Shown: positions 54,167 through 61,911 of the stretch, in pieces
How the letters are laid out: each line of letters opens with the position of its first letter
How positions within the stretch are numbered: the stretch's first letter is position 1
Assembly: GCA_014584695.1 (NCBI GenBank)
Contig: JACTMI010000024.1
Location: 1 to 64,000, forward strand
Direction: 5' to 3'
Length of the DNA: 64,000 bases
From: Acidobacteriota bacterium
Lineage (GTDB): Bacteria; Acidobacteriota; Thermoanaerobaculia; Multivoradales; JAGPDF01
Program-made: the position numbers and the translations under genes
Notes under the pieces: generated by a model
Database searches by the model: none
Told to the model about the DNA's origin: nothing
What the model saw: only the letters and a program-made list of their open reading frames with translations

Positions 54167-55143
54167 CCGGCGAGACGGTGACCTATCTCGAGGCGATCCG
54201 GCGCGCCCTCGGCGACGCGATGGCGGAGGACTCCCGCGTCTTCCTGATCGGCGAGGACATCGGCCGCTACGGCGGCGCCTTCAAGGTCACCGAAGGGCTG
54301 CTCGACCGTTTCGGCCCCGAGCGCGTCATCGACACGCCGATCGCCGAGTCGGGTTTCGTCGGCGCCGCGATCGGCGCCGCGATGATGGGACTGCGGCCGG
54401 TGGTCGAGTTCCAGTTCATCGACTTCATCGCCAACGCCTTCGACATGATCGTCAACTTCGCCGGCACCAACCGCTACCGGTGGGGGCAGAAGGTGCCGGT
54501 GCTGATGCGCGGACCTTCGGGGGGGGGCGTCCACGGCTCGGCCTTCCACAGCGGCAATCCCGAGGGGTACTTCCACCGCGCGCCCGGGCTCAAGATCGTC
54601 TATCCGGCCACCGTCGACGATGCCTACGGCTTGCTGCGCGAGGGCCTGCTCGATCCGAATCCGGTGCTCTTCTTCGAGCACAAGTACCTCTACCGCCGCG
54701 TCAAGGGCGAGCTGCCGGGCAGCGGCCATCGGGTGCCGATCGGCAAGGCGCGGCTCGCGCGCCCGGGGCGGGACCTGTCGGTCATCACCTACGCGGCGAT
54801 GCTCCATGTCGCGCTCGAAGTGGCCGAGAAGCTGGCCGCCGAAGGCATCGAGATCGAGGTGCTGGATCTGCGGACGCTCAAGCCGCTCGACGACGAGGCG
54901 ATCGTCGCGACGGCCGAGAAGACCGGCCGGGTGATCGTGATGAACGAGGAACCGCTGACCGGCTCGCTCGCCGGCGAGGTCGCCGCGCGCGTCGCCGAGC
55001 GGGCCTTCTGGAGCCTCGACGCGCCGGTTACCCGCCTGTGCTGCCTCGACACGCCGGTGCCCTACAGCCCGCCGCTCGAGGCCCGCTACCTGCCCGACGC
55101 CGCCAAGCTGGAAGCCAAGGTCCGCGAGCTGCTCGCGGTCTGA
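54163..55143 (+). CDS. 2-oxo acid dehydrogenase E1 component, beta subunit
   Basis: 326 residues: TYLEAIRRALGDAM start, FLIGEDIGRYGGAFKVTEGL, DTPIAESGFVGAAIGAAMMGLRPVVEFQFIDF, and the C-terminal KTGRVIVMNEEPLTGSLAGEV typical of E1-beta. The start is TTG at 54163, inside the alpha-subunit stop (TTGA) with GGGGAG 6 nt upstream; GTG at 54178 is an alternative. A run of nine G (54519-54527) falls inside a Gly-rich loop. Forms an alpha2beta2 E1 with the upstream gene. 6 nt before the convergent kinase gene. Confidence 0.94.
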   Translation: MTGETVTYLEAIRRALGDAMAEDSRVFLIGEDIGRYGGAFKVTEGLLDRFGPERVIDTPIAESGFVGAAIGAAMMGLRPVVEFQFIDFIANAFDMIVNFAGTNRYRWGQKVPVLMRGPSGGGVHGSAFHSGNPEGYFHRAPGLKIVYPATVDDAYGLLREGLLDPNPVLFFEHKYLYRRVKGELPGSGHRVPIGKARLARPGRDLSVITYAAMLHVALEVAEKLAAEGIEIEVLDLRTLKPLDDEAIVATAEKTGRVIVMNEEPLTGSLAGEVAARVAERAFWSLDAPVTRLCCLDTPVPYSPPLEARYLPDAAKLEAKVRELLAV

Positions 55144-55149
55144 ATCCCG

Positions 55150-58100
55150 TCAGCGCCGGGGGAGGCGCACGGGTGGGCGGGGCGGCAGGCGGCCGCCGCC
55201 GGCGGCGGCCGCGGCCTCGAGCGCGGCGAGTCGGGCCGCGAAGGCCTCCGCTTCCGCCGTCTGGCCGAGCGCGCGGGCGAGGGCCTCGGCGGCCACCAGC
55301 GTCGTCTGCATCAGCGGGGAGTCGTCGGGGAAAGCACGCTTCTGGATCGCCAGCGCGCGCTCGAGGTGCCGGCCCGCGAGATCGAAGCGCGCGGCGTGCA
55401 GCTCGAGCAGCGCCAGATTCGCGAGCGTGACCGCGACAAGGGGGTGATCGGGGCCGAGCGCCGCCTCCCGCACCCGCAGGGCGCGGGCCCAGAGCTCGCC
55501 CGCCTGGTCCACCTTGCCCGCGAACCAGAGGCAGGTGCCGAGGTTGTTGAGCGACAGGCCGGTCAGCGGGTGGCTTTCGCCGAGCGCCGCCAAGCGGACG
55601 GCGAGCGCGGCGTGGAACATCGCTTCCGCTTCGGCCAGGCGCCCCTGGTCCTGGTGCACGCTGGCGAGGTTGTTGTAGAGCGTGCCGAGCTCGGGGTGCT
55701 GGTCCCCCAGGTGCCGGCGCTTGATCTCGATCGCGCGCTCGTAGAGCCGCGCCGCCTCGTCCGACTCGCCGAGCTCGCGCAGCTGCGCCGCCAGGTTGTT
55801 GAGGTCGGAGGCGACCTCGTTCGAATCGGGCCCGAAAGCGCGCTCGCGGATCGCCACCACGCGGCGCAGCAGGTCGGCCGCGGGCCGGAACTCGCCCTTC
55901 TGGAAGTGGACGAAACCGAGCGTGGTCAAGCTCTGGGCGACCTGCGGCGAGTCGGGGCCGGACAGGCGTTCGCGAATCGCCAGGCCCTCGCCGATCGCCT
56001 CGCGCGCGTCGTCCCAGCGCGCCTGCTCGACGAACACGTAGCCCAGGTCGTCGAGGAGCTTCGCGACCTGCGAGTCGTCCTCTCGGAGCTGGGCCCGCCG
56101 CAGCGCCAGCGCTTCGCGGTAGCGCGCTTCGGCCTCGCGCCAGTCACCGGTCTTCTCGGCCAGCCAGCCCAGGTCGTGGACGCTGTTGGCGGTTTCGAGG
56201 TGGCCGGGGCCGAGGTGCTCGCGCCGCAGCTCGAAGGCGCCGTGGAGCAGCTTGCCGGCCGGCTCGGCGAGGCCGAGCTGGAGATAGACGGTGCCGATCG
56301 CGTCCATCATCTTGGCGCGCACGACCGGTTGGTCGGCGAGCTCCTGCTCGATCTTCTCGGCGCCGCGGTCCAGGATCTCGCGCGCGGTGACCGCGTTGCC
56401 CTTCGCTTCCGAGGGATCGGAGACCTCGAACAGCCCGATCAGGAACTCGGTCACTTGCTGCGCGGCGCTCGCCTCGCGGTTGGCGCGCTCGGCCTCGGCG
56501 GCGATGCGGCGCGCCTGGAACGCCATGGCGACGCCGAACAGCGTCACCGCGAGGCCGGCGCCGATCGCCACCTTGCGGCGTCGGCGCGCCCGCTCGAGCG
56601 CCCGCCGGTCGGCTTCCGCGCGCTCGGCGGCGGCCAGCTCGAGGGCGCGCTCGGCGCGCCGTTGCTCGAGCGAGCGCAGCCGGCGCGCGACGTCGAGAGC
56701 GCTCGCCACCCGGCGCTCGGGGCGGCCGTCGACGAACGCCGAGAGATCCTCGCGCAGCAACTCGTCGGCGACGTCGCGCTCCCAGCCGGGCGCCAGCGCC
56801 TTGCCGAAATTGCCGACCACGAGCTGGTAGATCAGCACTCCGAGCGAGAAGATGTCGGCCTGGGTTGTCGACGGGCGCCCCTCGAGCACCTCTGGCGCCA
56901 TGTAGATGCGGGTGCCGGACAGCTGGCTGCCGAGCGTCTGCGGCCGCTCGAGCTCGGTCATGCCGAGCACGGTGATGCCGAGGTCGGCGAGGCGCGAGCC
57001 ATCCGTGATCATGCCGATGCCGAAGTCGGTGACCCGCGCGCGGGGCTCGCCCGCCGGTCCGGCGGTGACCAGGATGTTGGCGGGCTTGATGTCCTTGTGC
57101 AGCACCCCGACCGAGTGCGCGGCCGCCACCGCATCGGCGACCTGGGCGGCGACCTCCAGCCGCACCGCCAGCGGCACCGCGTCGAAGCCGCCGGAGGCCT
57201 CGATCCACTCGAGCAGGTTGCCGCCCTCGGTGTACTCGAACTCCAGGAAGTAGGGGGGCTCGTCGAAGTTCCAGTCCAGGATGCGCGCGATGTCGGGGCG
57301 ATTGCCGAGCGTCTCGCGCAGCAGGCGGCAGACCGTGACCTCGCGCTGCAGCGCGCGCACCCGTTCGAGCTCGAAGCAGAACTTGAACACCCGCCGGTCG
57401 TGGGTCTTCTGGTGCCGTGCCAGCCAGACTTCGCCGAAGCCCCCCTCTCCCAACTTGCGCTCGAACGCCCAGTTCGGCCGCTGCGGGACCGCCTGTCCGG
57501 GCGCCGGACGCCAGCCCAGGACCGTCTCGTCGCCGCCCAGCCGGCGGGCCTTGTCCGAGGGGGTGGGCGGCACCAGCGGCGCCCAACCCTCGACGCCCAC
57601 CTCGAAGACCTCCACCGGCTCGTCGAGGCCCTTGAACAGGTAGCTGCCGTGAGCCAGCCACTTCAGGTTCTCGCCGAAGCCCGTCCAACCGGCGGTGGCC
57701 CGGCGCGCGAGGTCGAAAGCGCCGCGGGAGAGCAGGGTCTGGCCGCCGCGCGCGAGCGACATCAGGCGCGCCGCGACCGGCTTGGCCAGCCCCTCGACCT
57801 CGACCGGTTTCGCCCCCTGGGCGATCTCCGCGGGCGGGTTCTCGCGCAGGAAGACTTCGCCGACGTGGATGCCGGCGCGCGCCTCGAGCTTCACGCCGGT
57901 CTCCTGGTCGAGCTTGCCGAGCGCTTCGTGGTAGGCGAGCGCGTAGGCGACCGCGTGGATCGGGCGCTCGAACAGCAACAGGAAGCCGTCGGTCTTGTCG
58001 ATCTCGCGGCCCTCGAAGCGATCGAGCAGCGCGCGCGCCAGCCGGTCGTGGCGGGCAAAGAGCTCGGCCGCCCGCTGATCTCCCAGCTTCTCGACCCAGC

Positions 58101-58182
58101 GGGTGGAGTCGACGAGATCGGTGAGCAGCAGCGTCTTGAGCGACGCCGTGCCGGACGTCGAGCTCGTGGGGCCGGTGCTCAT
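55150..58182 (-). CDS. Fusion: class III nucleotide-cyclase domain + Ser/Thr protein kinase + TPR repeats
   Basis: 1010 residues. Residues 12-195 are a class III nucleotidyl-cyclase homology domain (TDLVDST with Asp22, DKTDGFLLLF with Asp65, GIHVGEV), followed by a protein kinase domain (about 240-500) with Gly loop LGEGGFGEVWLARH, Lys267, catalytic HKDIKPANI (Asp364) and DFG (386-388), MAPE at 428-431. A membrane helix (537-556) leads to at least eight TPR-like repeats of about 42 residues (to about 985). Kinase residues are complete, so it should be active. The cyclase may be catalytic or a sensor. ATG at 58182 overlaps the upstream stop (ATGA). Confidence 0.9.
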   Translation of the reverse strand: MSTGPTSSTSGTASLKTLLLTDLVDSTRWVEKLGDQRAAELFARHDRLARALLDRFEGREIDKTDGFLLLFERPIHAVAYALAYHEALGKLDQETGVKLEARAGIHVGEVFLRENPPAEIAQGAKPVEVEGLAKPVAARLMSLARGGQTLLSRGAFDLARRATAGWTGFGENLKWLAHGSYLFKGLDEPVEVFEVGVEGWAPLVPPTPSDKARRLGGDETVLGWRPAPGQAVPQRPNWAFERKLGEGGFGEVWLARHQKTHDRRVFKFCFELERVRALQREVTVCRLLRETLGNRPDIARILDWNFDEPPYFLEFEYTEGGNLLEWIEASGGFDAVPLAVRLEVAAQVADAVAAAHSVGVLHKDIKPANILVTAGPAGEPRARVTDFGIGMITDGSRLADLGITVLGMTELERPQTLGSQLSGTRIYMAPEVLEGRPSTTQADIFSLGVLIYQLVVGNFGKALAPGWERDVADELLREDLSAFVDGRPERRVASALDVARRLRSLEQRRAERALELAAAERAEADRRALERARRRRKVAIGAGLAVTLFGVAMAFQARRIAAEAERANREASAAQQVTEFLIGLFEVSDPSEAKGNAVTAREILDRGAEKIEQELADQPVVRAKMMDAIGTVYLQLGLAEPAGKLLHGAFELRREHLGPGHLETANSVHDLGWLAEKTGDWREAEARYREALALRRAQLREDDSQVAKLLDDLGYVFVEQARWDDAREAIGEGLAIRERLSGPDSPQVAQSLTTLGFVHFQKGEFRPAADLLRRVVAIRERAFGPDSNEVASDLNNLAAQLRELGESDEAARLYERAIEIKRRHLGDQHPELGTLYNNLASVHQDQGRLAEAEAMFHAALAVRLAALGESHPLTGLSLNNLGTCLWFAGKVDQAGELWARALRVREAALGPDHPLVAVTLANLALLELHAARFDLAGRHLERALAIQKRAFPDDSPLMQTTLVAAEALARALGQTAEAEAFAARLAALEAAAAAGGGRLPPRPPVRLPRR

Positions 58183-60092
58183 CCGGCCGCGATTCCGAGA
58201 TCGACCAGCGTCTCGTCCCAGGCGAGGCGGGCCCGTCCAGCCTTCTTGGCCAGGTAGAGGCCCCGGTCGGCGCGCTCGAACAGCCCTCGCCAGTCTTCGC
58301 CGGCGCGCAGCAGGCCGCCACCGAGGCTGGTGGTGACGCGCAGGTTCTGCGGCGCGCCGGCCAGCTCGAAGCTGGCGAGCGCCGGCGCCAGAGTCTCGGC
58401 GCGGCGGGCGGCCGAGGAGCCGTCGATGTCGGTCCAGAGCACGGCGAACTCGTCGCCGCCGATCCGGCAGGGCAGGTCGGTCCAGCGCACCGAGCCGCGC
58501 AGCAACTGCGCCACCCGGCGCAGCACCAGGTCGCCGACCATGTGCCCGAGCGTGTCGTTGACCAGCTTGAAGCGGTCGACGTCGACCAGCAGCAGCGCCA
58601 GCGACAGGCCGCCATCGCGCGCGCGCTCGACCGAGCGCAGGATCTGCTCCTCGAAGCAGCGGCGGTTGAAGATCCCGGTGAGCTCGTCGGTCAGCGAGCG
58701 CGCCTCGATCGTGGTCAGCTCCTCGCGGGTCCGCTGCAGGAAATCGAGCGCGCGCTCGAGGTCGCGCGCCCGGCGCCGCAGGTCGCCGACCAGTCGCTGC
58801 TCGGAGGCGACCAGATAGGCGCAGGTCCGCTCCAGCATGCCGGCCAGGACGTCGGGGCGCTGGGCACGCAGCCGCGAGTAGGCCTCCTGGTCGACCACGA
58901 TCAACCGGAGGTCGGAGGCGGCCAGGGCGGTGGCGGTGCGGCGGTGGCTGGCGGTGAGCAAGGCGAGCTCGCCGAACGGGTCGCCGGGGCCGAGGCGCTT
59001 GGCGGGGCGACCGTGCTCGAAGCGGAGCTCGACCTCGCCCGCCTCGACCACGAACAGCCGGTCGCCCGGCTCGGCACGACGGAAGATGGTCTCGCCGGCG
59101 GGGTAGGTCCGCACCTGGCAGTAAGGGACGATCGCGGCGACCTCGGCGGGGGCGAGGCGGGCGGGGGTGGCGTCGAGGTCGAGCTCGGCGAGCACGACGC
59201 CCGTCTCTTCCCCTGCCGCGAGCTCGAGCGGCTCGAATGGCACGGCCGCGCCGGCTCGTGCGCTGCGCTCCTCGACGCTCTCCGAACGCTCCAGACAGAA
59301 GCGCTGGATCGTCGCCCGGACGGCGGGCTGCCGGCCGGCGATCGCGACCACGGCCGAGCGGTCGAGCTCGAGCAGCTCGCACTCGGTGGCGGCGATTACG
59401 GTCGCGCTGCGCGGGCCGCCGGTCAGCAGGGAGATCTCACCGAAGAAGTCCCCCGAGGCCAGGCCCCGGACTTCGCGCAGCCGGCGGTCGAGCCCCTGGA
59501 CGTAGACCCGGGCCTCGCCGCTCGCGAGCACGAAGAGGCTGCCTCCCGGCTCGCCCTCGGCGACGATGACCTGTCCGGCGGCGTAGGTCGCGTGGTGGAG
59601 GCCACGGATGACCTCCACCAGCTCGGCGCGCGAGAGCTCGGAGAAGAGCGGCGAGCGGGAGACCTCCTCCGGCACCGGCTGGGTGGGGAGGACCAAGCCC
59701 CCCGGCACCGCGGGCACGGCGCGCTGCGCCTGTTCGTCCCGCTCGCGGATGAGGTCGGCGAGCGCCTGCTCGACCTCGCGGGCGTCGGGACGGATCCGCT
59801 GCAGTCGCTTGAGGACGGCGATCGCCTTGGCGGTGAAACCGGCGGCGGCGAGCTCGCGGCCGACCGCTTCGAGCAGCGTCGCCGCCTCGGCGCTCTTGCC
59901 GCCGAGCGACAGGACGTCGGCCAGGCGCAGGCGCAGGCTGGGCTCTTCGGGCCGCTCGGCGACCGCGGCCCGCAGCAGTTCGGCCGCCCGGTCATAGCGA
60001 CGCCGGGCGACCAGGGCGTCGACCTCCCGCAGCGAATCGGTGGCACCGAGCAACCTGAGGACCTCTCGCACCTTCCCGTCGACCGCGGCCAC
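58179..60092 (-). CDS. Diguanylate cyclase with TPR-like N-terminus and two cyclic-nucleotide-binding domains
   Basis: 637 residues. Helical TPR-like region (1 to about 120), two cNMP-binding domains (about 148-265 and 315-430) with phosphate-binding cassettes FGEISLLTGGPRSAT (217-231) and FGELALLTASHRRTAT (373-388), a coiled linker, then a GGDEF domain with an exact GGDEF at 545-549 and an RWTD inhibitory-site motif (RxxD, 536-539) five residues before it. Predicted to make c-di-GMP under feedback control and to respond to cAMP or cGMP. Starts at GTG 60092. Overlaps the downstream cyclase-kinase gene by ATGA. Confidence 0.9.
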   Translation of the reverse strand: MAAVDGKVREVLRLLGATDSLREVDALVARRRYDRAAELLRAAVAERPEEPSLRLRLADVLSLGGKSAEAATLLEAVGRELAAAGFTAKAIAVLKRLQRIRPDAREVEQALADLIRERDEQAQRAVPAVPGGLVLPTQPVPEEVSRSPLFSELSRAELVEVIRGLHHATYAAGQVIVAEGEPGGSLFVLASGEARVYVQGLDRRLREVRGLASGDFFGEISLLTGGPRSATVIAATECELLELDRSAVVAIAGRQPAVRATIQRFCLERSESVEERSARAGAAVPFEPLELAAGEETGVVLAELDLDATPARLAPAEVAAIVPYCQVRTYPAGETIFRRAEPGDRLFVVEAGEVELRFEHGRPAKRLGPGDPFGELALLTASHRRTATALAASDLRLIVVDQEAYSRLRAQRPDVLAGMLERTCAYLVASEQRLVGDLRRRARDLERALDFLQRTREELTTIEARSLTDELTGIFNRRCFEEQILRSVERARDGGLSLALLLVDVDRFKLVNDTLGHMVGDLVLRRVAQLLRGSVRWTDLPCRIGGDEFAVLWTDIDGSSAARRAETLAPALASFELAGAPQNLRVTTSLGGGLLRAGEDWRGLFERADRGLYLAKKAGRARLAWDETLVDLGIAAG

Positions 60093-60121
60093 CCCCGGGC
60101 CGCCGCCGGCGAATCGGCCGC

Positions 60122-60150
60122 ATTATTCACCACCGGCCGGAGAGGTCCAA
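60122..60150 (-). promoter_or_regulatory. Candidate promoter of the signalling operon
   Basis: AATAAT (60127-60122, minus strand; 5/6) with TTGGAC (60150-60145) 17 nt upstream (weak -35). It lies in the 144-bp gap that also contains the his promoter on the other strand. Confidence 0.35.
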
Positions 60151-60198
60151 GCGGAGCGCTCCAGCGCCGCCGGGAGGAGGGCAGGGTGCGAGCTTCGC

Positions 60199-60227
60199 TT
60201 GACAGGCAGGGGCGGCATTGCTCTAAT
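60199..60227 (+). promoter_or_regulatory. Strong promoter of the aro-his operon
   Basis: TTGACA (60199-60204), a perfect -35, 17-nt spacer, TCTAAT (60222-60227), a 5/6 -10. Transcription should begin near 60234-60237, at or next to the ATG of the leader ORF. Best promoter match in the window. Confidence 0.78.
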
Positions 60228-60236
60228 GCGCGGCGC

Positions 60237-60323
60237 ATGAGCCGCCCGAACGACGCCCGCCGCACGCTTCGCGCAAGCGCCCCGCGCTGGCGTCGCTCCG
60301 GCCATCACCACGTGGTGAGCTGA
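60237..60323 (+). CDS. His-rich leader peptide
   Basis: 28-residue ORF, Arg-rich, ending in GHHHVVS: three His codons (60303-60311), two Val, Ser and stop at 60321-60323. Leader ORFs with runs of the pathway amino acid precede attenuation-controlled operons, and hisZ, hisG and hisD follow 1.5 kb downstream. It has no Shine-Dalgarno, but its ATG lies 9 nt after the -10, so it may be translated as a leaderless message. The His/Val codons also form a 12-nt palindrome, CACCAC/GTGGTG (60306-60317). Not a protein with a function of its own, by inference. Confidence 0.65.
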   Translation: MSRPNDARRTLRASAPRWRRSGHHHVVS

Positions 60324-60415
60324 CGGCCGGGGCTTTCCGTCCCGGCCGAACGGCCCGGGGCGAGGACATCCGAAATCGTTCGTTTCGCGAACCTCCTTCC
60401 GGCGCCGGAAGGAGG
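60324..60415 (+). promoter_or_regulatory. Candidate histidine attenuator / Shine-Dalgarno switch
   Basis: Segments: 1 = CGGCCGGG (60324-60331), 2 = CCCGGCCG (60341-60348), 3 = CGGCCCGGGG plus CGAGG (60351-60365), 4 = CCTCCTTCCGGC (60392-60403), 5 = GCCGGAAGGAGG (60404-60415). 1:2 pair perfectly; 2:3 pair with a one-base bulge (a 2-nt loop, so its innermost pairs would open); 3:4 pair over 11 positions with one mismatch and two G-U; 4:5 is a perfect 12-bp palindrome followed by TTTT. Segment 5 contains the Shine-Dalgarno of aroDE, 8 nt before its TTG, so 4:5 could block translation and perhaps act as a weak terminator. Pairings were found by eye. Confidence 0.6.
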
Positions 60416-60423
60416 TTTTGCTC

Positions 60424-61911
60424 TTGGCTGAACGCGCGACCCTGATCGCATCGCTGGTCGAGCCGCCCTCTTCGGACGGACGGGAGATCGCCGCGCTCGC
60501 CGGGCGGGCGGAGATGCTCGAGGTGCGCGCCGACCGGGTCGGCGATCTCGACCCGGACTGGCTGCGCGGCCTCTTCCCCGGCCGCCTCCTCTACACGTTG
60601 CGCAGCCGCGCCGAGGGCGGCGAGTTCAGCGGCGCGCGCGAGCGCCGTCGCCGCCGCCTCGCGGAGGCCTCGGCGGGCTACGACCTCGTCGACCTCGAGG
60701 GCGATCGCGACCGCGCGCCGGAGCTGCTCGATCAGATCGAGCCGGCGCGGCGAATCCTCTCCTGGCACGGCTCGGCGACCGACTTCTCCGGCCTGTCGTC
60801 CCGCGCCGCGCACCTGCTGTCGACGCCGGCGCGGTACTACAAGCTGGTGCCGACCGCCCTCCACTCCGGCGAGGACCTGGTGCCGCTCGCCCTGCTCGCC
60901 GAGCTGGGACGGAGCGACGTCGTCGCCTTCGCCGGGGGAGCGCGCGGCACCTGGACACGGCTGGTAGCGCCCCGGTTGGGCGCACCGGTGGTTTTCGCGG
61001 CGGCCTCGCAAACTCCGGCCGCCCCCGGCCAGCTCCCGCTCGAGCGTCTGCGGGGCGACTACGGGCTGCCCGAGCTGCCGCCCGCGGAGAGGCTCTTCGG
61101 CGTGGTCGGCGACCCCGCGCTCGGCTCGCTGTCGCCGCGGCTGCACAACCGCGCCTATCGTCGGCTCGGCATCGCGGCGCTCTACCTGCCCTTCGAAGTC
61201 GATCACTTCGGCGACTTCTGGCTCGAGCTGCTCGAGACCGGGACGCTGGCGCGGCTCGGCCTGCCGCTCGCCGGGCTCTCGGTGACCACCCCGCACAAGG
61301 AGGTGGCGTTCGCCATCGCCGGCGCCACCAGCCCGCTCGCGACACGGCTCCAGGCGGTGAACACGCTGACGCCGCGCGCGGGGGTGTGGGAGGGCGAATC
61401 GACCGACGCCGAAGGGGTGGTGGCGGCCCTGCGCGCGCGCGGGGTCGACCCGCGCGGCCGGCGCGCCGCCGTGCTGGGCTGCGGCGGGGCCGGGCGCGCC
61501 GCGGCGCTCGGCCTGTCGCTCGCCGGCGCGCGGGTGGCGATGGTCAACCGCGGCGCGGAGCGCGGGCTGGCGGCGGCCAAGAGCCTGGGGCTGCCCTTCG
61601 TTCCGCTCGCCGATCTCGGCGTCGCCGCCTTCGATCTCTTCGTCCACGCGACGCCGCTCGGGCGCGGGCCCGCCGACGAGCTGCCGCTGCCCATCGCCCG
61701 CCTTTCGCCCGGCACGGCGGTGGTCGATCTGGTCTACGGCGAGGCGCCGACCCGCCTGGTGGCGGAGGCGGCGCGACGCGGCCTGGTCGCGGTCGACGGC
61801 CGCGAGGTGCTGCTGCGCCAAGCGGTGCCGCAGTTCCGCGTCATGACCGGCCGCGAGCTGCCGGTCGACCTCGGCCTCGAAGCGCTCGGCCTGACGGAGG
61901 TCTCGCGGTGA
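60424..61911 (+). CDS. aroDE: Fused 3-dehydroquinate dehydratase (type I) / shikimate dehydrogenase
   Basis: 495 residues carrying two consecutive steps of the shikimate pathway. N-terminal type I dehydratase (1 to about 215): SWHGSATD with His115 and the Schiff-base Lys140 in YYKLVPTA. C-terminal shikimate dehydrogenase (about 222-490): LSPRLHNRAY, Lys292 in TTPHKE, Asp328 in ESTDAEG, NADP fold GCGGAGRAA (352-360), and a late RQAVPQF. Both halves keep catalytic residues. TTG at 60424 is 8 nt after GGAAGGAGG; TTG at 60418 is too close. First structural gene of the operon, overlapping hisZ by GTGA. Confidence 0.94.
   Translation: MAERATLIASLVEPPSSDGREIAALAGRAEMLEVRADRVGDLDPDWLRGLFPGRLLYTLRSRAEGGEFSGARERRRRRLAEASAGYDLVDLEGDRDRAPELLDQIEPARRILSWHGSATDFSGLSSRAAHLLSTPARYYKLVPTALHSGEDLVPLALLAELGRSDVVAFAGGARGTWTRLVAPRLGAPVVFAAASQTPAAPGQLPLERLRGDYGLPELPPAERLFGVVGDPALGSLSPRLHNRAYRRLGIAALYLPFEVDHFGDFWLELLETGTLARLGLPLAGLSVTTPHKEVAFAIAGATSPLATRLQAVNTLTPRAGVWEGESTDAEGVVAALRARGVDPRGRRAAVLGCGGAGRAAALGLSLAGARVAMVNRGAERGLAAAKSLGLPFVPLADLGVAAFDLFVHATPLGRGPADELPLPIARLSPGTAVVDLVYGEAPTRLVAEAARRGLVAVDGREVLLRQAVPQFRVMTGRELPVDLGLEALGLTEVSR

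Follow-up and report, generated by a model that had tools for sequence, protein, structure and literature searches.

Two overlapping genes, here called A and B, occupy positions 55,150 to 60,092 on the reverse strand of a 64,000-nucleotide stretch of an Acidobacteriota bacterium genome (GenBank assembly GCA_014584695.1, contig JACTMI010000024.1, positions 1 to 64,000; hereafter the window). They probably encode a relay from cGMP to cyclic di-GMP (c-di-GMP) of the XC_0250/XC_0249 kind described in Xanthomonas campestris, with a built-in Ser/Thr kinase and a second cyclic nucleotide (cNMP) input. By analogy with that pair, a pathway for which tests have until now been confined to a plant pathogen probably extends to another phylum, Acidobacteriota; the location in this phylum, the kinase and the second cNMP domain are new here. 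In bacteria, cGMP signalling is rare and has been little mapped, and its direct link to c-di-GMP is known from one organism. Homology and linkage would carry this link into Acidobacteriota and predict the nucleotide used.

The two genes, their overlap and the domains of the encoded proteins, including tetratricopeptide repeats (TPR) and a transmembrane (TM) helix, were delimited from open reading frames (ORFs), Pfam matches and alignments as follows:

58179..60092, reverse strand: gene A, 637 residues, GTG start at 60092 and TGA stop at 58179, encoding TPR, cNMP1, cNMP2 and GGDEF in this order (ORF and Pfam)
59853..60032, reverse strand: TPR region of A, residues 21-80 (Pfam TPR_19, E 1e-7)
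59283..59675, reverse strand: cNMP1 of A, residues about 140-270, with the phosphate cassette FGEISLLTGGPRSA (Pfam and alignment)
58773..59162, reverse strand: cNMP2 of A, residues about 311-440, XC_0249-like (match to PDB 5h5o, alignment)
58230..58694, reverse strand: GGDEF diguanylate cyclase domain of A, residues 467-621 (Pfam, E 3e-38)
58476..58487, reverse strand: RWTD inhibitory (I) site of A, residues 536-539 (alignment)
58446..58460, reverse strand: GGDEF signature of A, residues 545-549 (alignment)
58179..58182, reverse strand: ATGA stop/start overlap of A and B (sequence)
55150..58182, reverse strand: gene B, 1010 residues, ATG start at 58182, encoding cyclase-homology domain, Ser/Thr kinase, TM helix and TPR in this order (ORF and Pfam)
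57583..58149, reverse strand: cyclase-homology domain of B, residues 12-200, of the TIGR04510/XC_0250 type (TIGR04510, alignment, AlphaFold2)
57982..58005, reverse strand: EIDKTDGF signature of B, including the second metal Asp, D65 (alignment)
56803..57474, reverse strand: Ser/Thr kinase domain of B, residues 237-460, catalytic motifs intact (Pfam and alignment)
56515..56571, reverse strand: single predicted TM helix of B, residues 538-556 (hydropathy alone)
55213..56301, reverse strand: C-terminal TPR array of B, residues 628-990, predicted to lie beyond the membrane (Pfam, hydropathy)

An earlier, sequence-only reading of this DNA had described the ORF coordinates and the overlap, two cNMP domains with an intact GGDEF and an RxxD site in A, and class III cyclase homology, an intact Ser/Thr kinase and a long TPR region in B. 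These descriptions were borne out by Pfam and alignment for A, and by Pfam, TIGR04510, phmmer and AlphaFold2 for B. Protein A contains two cNMP_binding stretches (Pfam, E 3e-42), and its RWTD sits five residues ahead of an intact GGDEF motif, the GGDE of which is unchanged in 31/31 aligned receptor proteins; RxxD occurs in 6/7 acidobacterial receptors (it is not listed for L090), with the Arg present in only 5/31 of the first alignment set. In protein B the kinase (Pkinase, E 1.5e-31) has the G-loop, HKD and DFG motifs and is followed by many TPRs. A hydropathy scan found the N-terminal flank of the TM helix to be the more basic one (8 R/K vs 4), as it is in 49/52 relatives that lack the kinase, and this simple prediction therefore suggests that cyclase and kinase are cytoplasmic and the TPR array lies outside.

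Both halves of the pair have homologues in X. campestris. XC_0250 is a guanylyl cyclase whose residues 1-220 produce cGMP and not cAMP, ATP not being used, and the linked cNMP-GGDEF protein XC_0249 binds cGMP with a dissociation constant (KD) of 0.29 μM and is stimulated by it (PMC3770947). PDB 5h5o matches both cNMP2 of A and the Lysobacterales receptor, and its spacing fits the published F73, E90, L91 and H98 of XC_0249; domains 93-94% identical to 5h5o were located in two Xanthomonas-type genomes (G323, G209), where the next gene encodes a B-type cyclase. By alignment, F358, E375, H383 and E431 in cNMP2 of A correspond to the cGMP contacts F73, E90, H98 and E146 of XC_0249; the equivalent of F358 is found in all members and that of E431 in 31/31. 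The cyclase domain of B is 49% identical to the XC_0250 orthologue of G323, and both keep the two metal Asps, lack one residue ahead of the second of them, have Pro in place of the transition-state Asn, and share the transition-state Arg and the motif GAKPxEVEGLAKPxAARLM. The two pairs thus share homologous cyclase and cNMP-GGDEF proteins, adjacent genes with the receptor first, the non-canonical cyclase residues and the cGMP-contact residues. In B, unlike XC_0250, a Ser/Thr kinase separates the cyclase from the membrane helix, and the TPR region is a different one; unlike XC_0249, A has an additional TPR-cNMP module, and an RxxD site that is absent from XC_0249 orthologues. Given the homology to XC_0250/XC_0249, the shared active-site and contact residues and the linkage, the ligand is most likely cGMP.

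The numbering of XC_0250 was compared with that of B using two Xanthomonas-type cyclases: L211, a full TIGR04510 member (E 1e-268), and L212, which has D41, D71, L73, A150, L157 and A161, all six of the residues numbered in PMC3770947. The alignment to Rv1900c would place the first metal Asp of XC_0250 at D28, its transition-state Arg at R145 and Pro141 at the Asn position, which differs from the assignment of D41 and L157/A161 in that paper (L211 and L212 compared with B residues 22, 35, 135-139 and 151-155). The published XC_0250 mutants are inactive, but perhaps for structural reasons.

The cyclase domain of B gave no match to Pfam Guanylate_cyc. It is detected by TIGR04510 (mod_pep_cyc, 'putative peptide modification system cyclase'), whose cyclase part aligns with residues 13-214 at E 1e-79; outside this part the protein differs from the model, which leaves the score, at 268.7 bits, under the curated cut-off of 400. 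For B, phmmer found the class III cyclases Rv1900c (LipJ) and MA1120. The earlier reading had proposed structure prediction as a check, and an AlphaFold2 model of the domain (36 sequences; mean predicted local distance difference test score (pLDDT) 83.5, cyclase blocks mostly >89) has the class III cyclase fold, superposing on the cyclase homology domain of Rv1900c (1ybt) with Z 23.1 and 1.7 Å across 170 residues, and on GTP-bound MA1120 with Z 22.8. Both metal Asps and the Arg are shared with these enzymes; B differs from them in lacking a residue before the second metal Asp, in Pro at the Asn position, and in an insert of 12-14 residues before GAKPxEVEG.

In an active-site alignment of 89 homologues at least 45% identical, D22, the first metal Asp, is unchanged in 87/89, and D65 (the second), D62 and the transition-state R139 in 88/89 each. 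Compared with the canonical K-T-x-G-D, the EIDKTDGF turn before D65 lacks one residue, a deletion that moves the Lys to K63; E128 stands where adenylyl cyclases have Asp, and P135, at the transition-state Asn position, is Pro in 77/89. As these non-canonical residues are themselves strongly conserved, the sequences argue for a site that is specialised, not decayed. EIDKTDGF and GAKPxEVEGLAKPxAARLM together provide a signature by which non-canonical guanylyl cyclases overlooked by general models can be found.

The linkage of the two genes recurs. In L061, the nearest relative and a member of the same genus, the ATGA overlap and the synteny beside aroDE are kept, and compared with its L061 counterpart, B has a ratio of nonsynonymous to synonymous substitution (dN/dS) of 0.26 and A one of 0.41. 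Among the loci fetched with the B cyclase domain, 28 gammaproteobacterial ones, and L061 as well, have a cNMP-GGDEF gene directly ahead of the cyclase. Co-occurrence across genomes, likewise proposed as a check, was found: in Xanthomonadales, receptor and cyclase lie within about 1.5 kb of each other in 20/20 genomes tested, and within the class the cyclase is present in 6/7 genomes with a cNMP-GGDEF gene (17/148; p 6e-6 by genomes and 0.011 by genera, neither corrected for relatedness). A phylum-wide draw of 297 genomes contained the receptor in 1 and the cyclase in 2, so both are rare outside the class. Other cNMP proteins are encoded near the cyclase in Planctomycetota (L079, L088) and Acidobacteriota (L112, L115); in the Phycisphaerales locus L079 (5482-5856) a stand-alone cNMP protein of 124 residues is encoded directly upstream of the cyclase gene. 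Tandem cyclase-TPR genes in two or three copies were seen in the Lysobacterales loci L092, L097, L100, L109 and L136, some of these stretches having no cNMP-GGDEF gene in the part examined.

L090 and G099 encode the modules of A in two genes, the cNMP-GGDEF gene pointing away and the TPR-cNMP gene lying directly upstream of the cyclase-kinase gene; a stand-alone TPR-cNMP gene is found in L090/L218, L216 and L219-L222. A is therefore a fusion of two neighbours. In the receptor tree, the receptor half of A and the other acidobacterial receptors stand opposite the gammaproteobacterial ones (support 100/99); in the cyclase tree, B groups with L061 (99) among kinase-bearing acidobacterial and planctomycete proteins, with weak deep branches. 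A transfer of the pair from Lysobacterales is not supported, as both trees place A and B with acidobacterial sequences and give no sign of recent transfer.

In the proposed relay, one helix would anchor B in the inner membrane, with the TPR array outside, where it would probably act as the sensor, and with cyclase and kinase inside. The cyclase would turn GTP into cGMP, which would bind A, mainly at cNMP2, and stimulate the GGDEF domain to produce c-di-GMP; the RxxD site of A would give product feedback, and the kinase would probably couple the same signal to phosphorylation of B itself, of A or of other targets. A more far-reaching version is possible but tentative: B would be a single-pass receptor in which the external TPR array governs both a guanylyl cyclase and a Ser/Thr kinase, the two regulating each other within one chain; A would be a two-input diguanylate cyclase that reads cGMP at two unlike sites; and phosphorylation, cGMP and c-di-GMP would be wired together in two co-translated proteins. 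The suggestion in the sequence-only reading that one protein makes the ligand read by the other gained support by comparison, from linkage in two phyla and from the match to XC_0250/XC_0249, its 'cAMP or cGMP' being narrowed to cGMP.

Several observations weigh against such a relay. The non-canonical base-selecting residues and the Pro in place of the transition-state Asn make an inactive fold possible, and XC_0250 has no kinase, so that the role of the kinase in B is a guess. The genes are on separate contigs in G037, G045 and G147 (G037 and G045 carrying all three genes), and in the stretches examined the kinase-bearing relatives mostly lack an adjacent cNMP-GGDEF gene. S430 of A replaces N145 of the N-E diad of XC_0249; the diad was described as conserved in all xanthomonad homologues (PMC3770947; An et al. 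2013), but Ser is found in 30/31 members, and the wider family, nearly all of it outside Xanthomonas having Ser here, retains just the Glu. If the cyclase of B were a nucleotide-binding pseudoenzyme in control of the attached kinase, with A reading cAMP or cGMP from elsewhere and the operon reflecting shared regulation, then its active-site departures and the missing Pfam match would be explained, and kinase-cyclase-kinase fusions as well as an FHA-cyclase beside a kinase gene do make kinase coupling a family theme. We consider this unlikely, since XC_0250 is active in vitro and its orthologues have the same non-canonical residues, and since near-invariant metal Asps, Arg and signature in the 89 homologues are unlike decay. 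The earlier reading had held that a cyclase lacking the second metal Asp and the substrate-specifying residues, in a pair not conserved together, would speak against a relay: base-selecting residues and the Asn are indeed lacking, but with both metal Asps present, the same departures in XC_0250 orthologues and the pair conserved, the relay is not refuted.

It is less likely still that the messenger is cAMP, or that cNMP1 reads cAMP while cNMP2 reads cGMP, which would make A an integrator of two signals. The CRP/PKA-like cassette of cNMP1 (PRSA), its derivation from a separate TPR-cNMP protein and the Ser of A at the N145 position would fit this, but XC_0250 does not use ATP, and the guanine-contacting Glu is present in every cNMP2 and probably also in most cNMP1 domains. 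That A and B are unrelated signalling proteins sharing one transcription unit in one genus is very improbable: kinase-TPR proteins are abundant in Acidobacteria (49 matches in this genome) and the exact A/B arrangement is found in only two genomes of the same genus, but the linkage recurs in Holophagae-type genomes, with another gene order, and across Xanthomonadales.

The fusion of cyclase and kinase, which the sequence-only reading had called uncommon, is not: at least 20 other loci have the cyclase ahead of a kinase. Loci of Acidobacteriota, Planctomycetota, Gemmatimonadota and Sumerlaeota encode cyclase-kinase or kinase-cyclase-kinase proteins, and the fusion is thus already recurrent in four or more phyla and not new; its repetition makes crosstalk between kinase and cGMP directly testable. 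The TIGR03903 TOMM system kinase/cyclase fusion likewise joins a Ser/Thr kinase to a cyclase, but only the kinase part of B matches it (91.3 bits, cut-off 705.75). Locus L112 (5494-9855) divides these parts between two genes, an FHA-cyclase and, next to it, a Ser/Thr kinase, while a cNMP-patatin (NTE-like) gene points away; the locus is B in split form, accompanied by a different cNMP reader, and its FHA domain hints at phosphorylation-dependent control of the cyclase.

In L135 (8692-10278), an NHLP-related precursor (TIGR04509) of a ribosomally synthesized and post-translationally modified peptide (RiPP) and a SagB-like dehydrogenase (TIGR04511) adjoin the gammaproteobacterial cyclase gene; the two families were tested in this locus, and many other Lysobacterales loci have the same gene layout at the same positions. 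In Lysobacterales the relay may thus be connected with peptide modification, a connection on which the papers found are silent; literature searches for TIGR04510 or its product name, and for RiPPs together with cGMP, returned nothing. A RiPP link at the A/B locus was rejected: TIGR04509 has no match in this genome, neither the precursor nor the SagB-like dehydrogenase is encoded at the locus, and what adjoins the pair is aroDE, a hisZ-like gene and E1 dehydrogenase genes.

An Rfam scan of 54900-60800 gave no match. Upstream of A, one promoter candidate was noted:

60122..60149, reverse strand: sigma-70-like promoter candidate (consensus match alone, 9/12, shuffle mean 0.0)

Just ahead of aroDE and the hisZ-like gene, positions 60238-60418 of the forward strand contain a small ORF, MSRPNDARRTLRASAPRWRRSGHHHVVS, together with a perfect hairpin that has a T run. 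The HHH end of the ORF and the hairpin are kept in L061, and the region looks like a histidine-type leader/attenuator.

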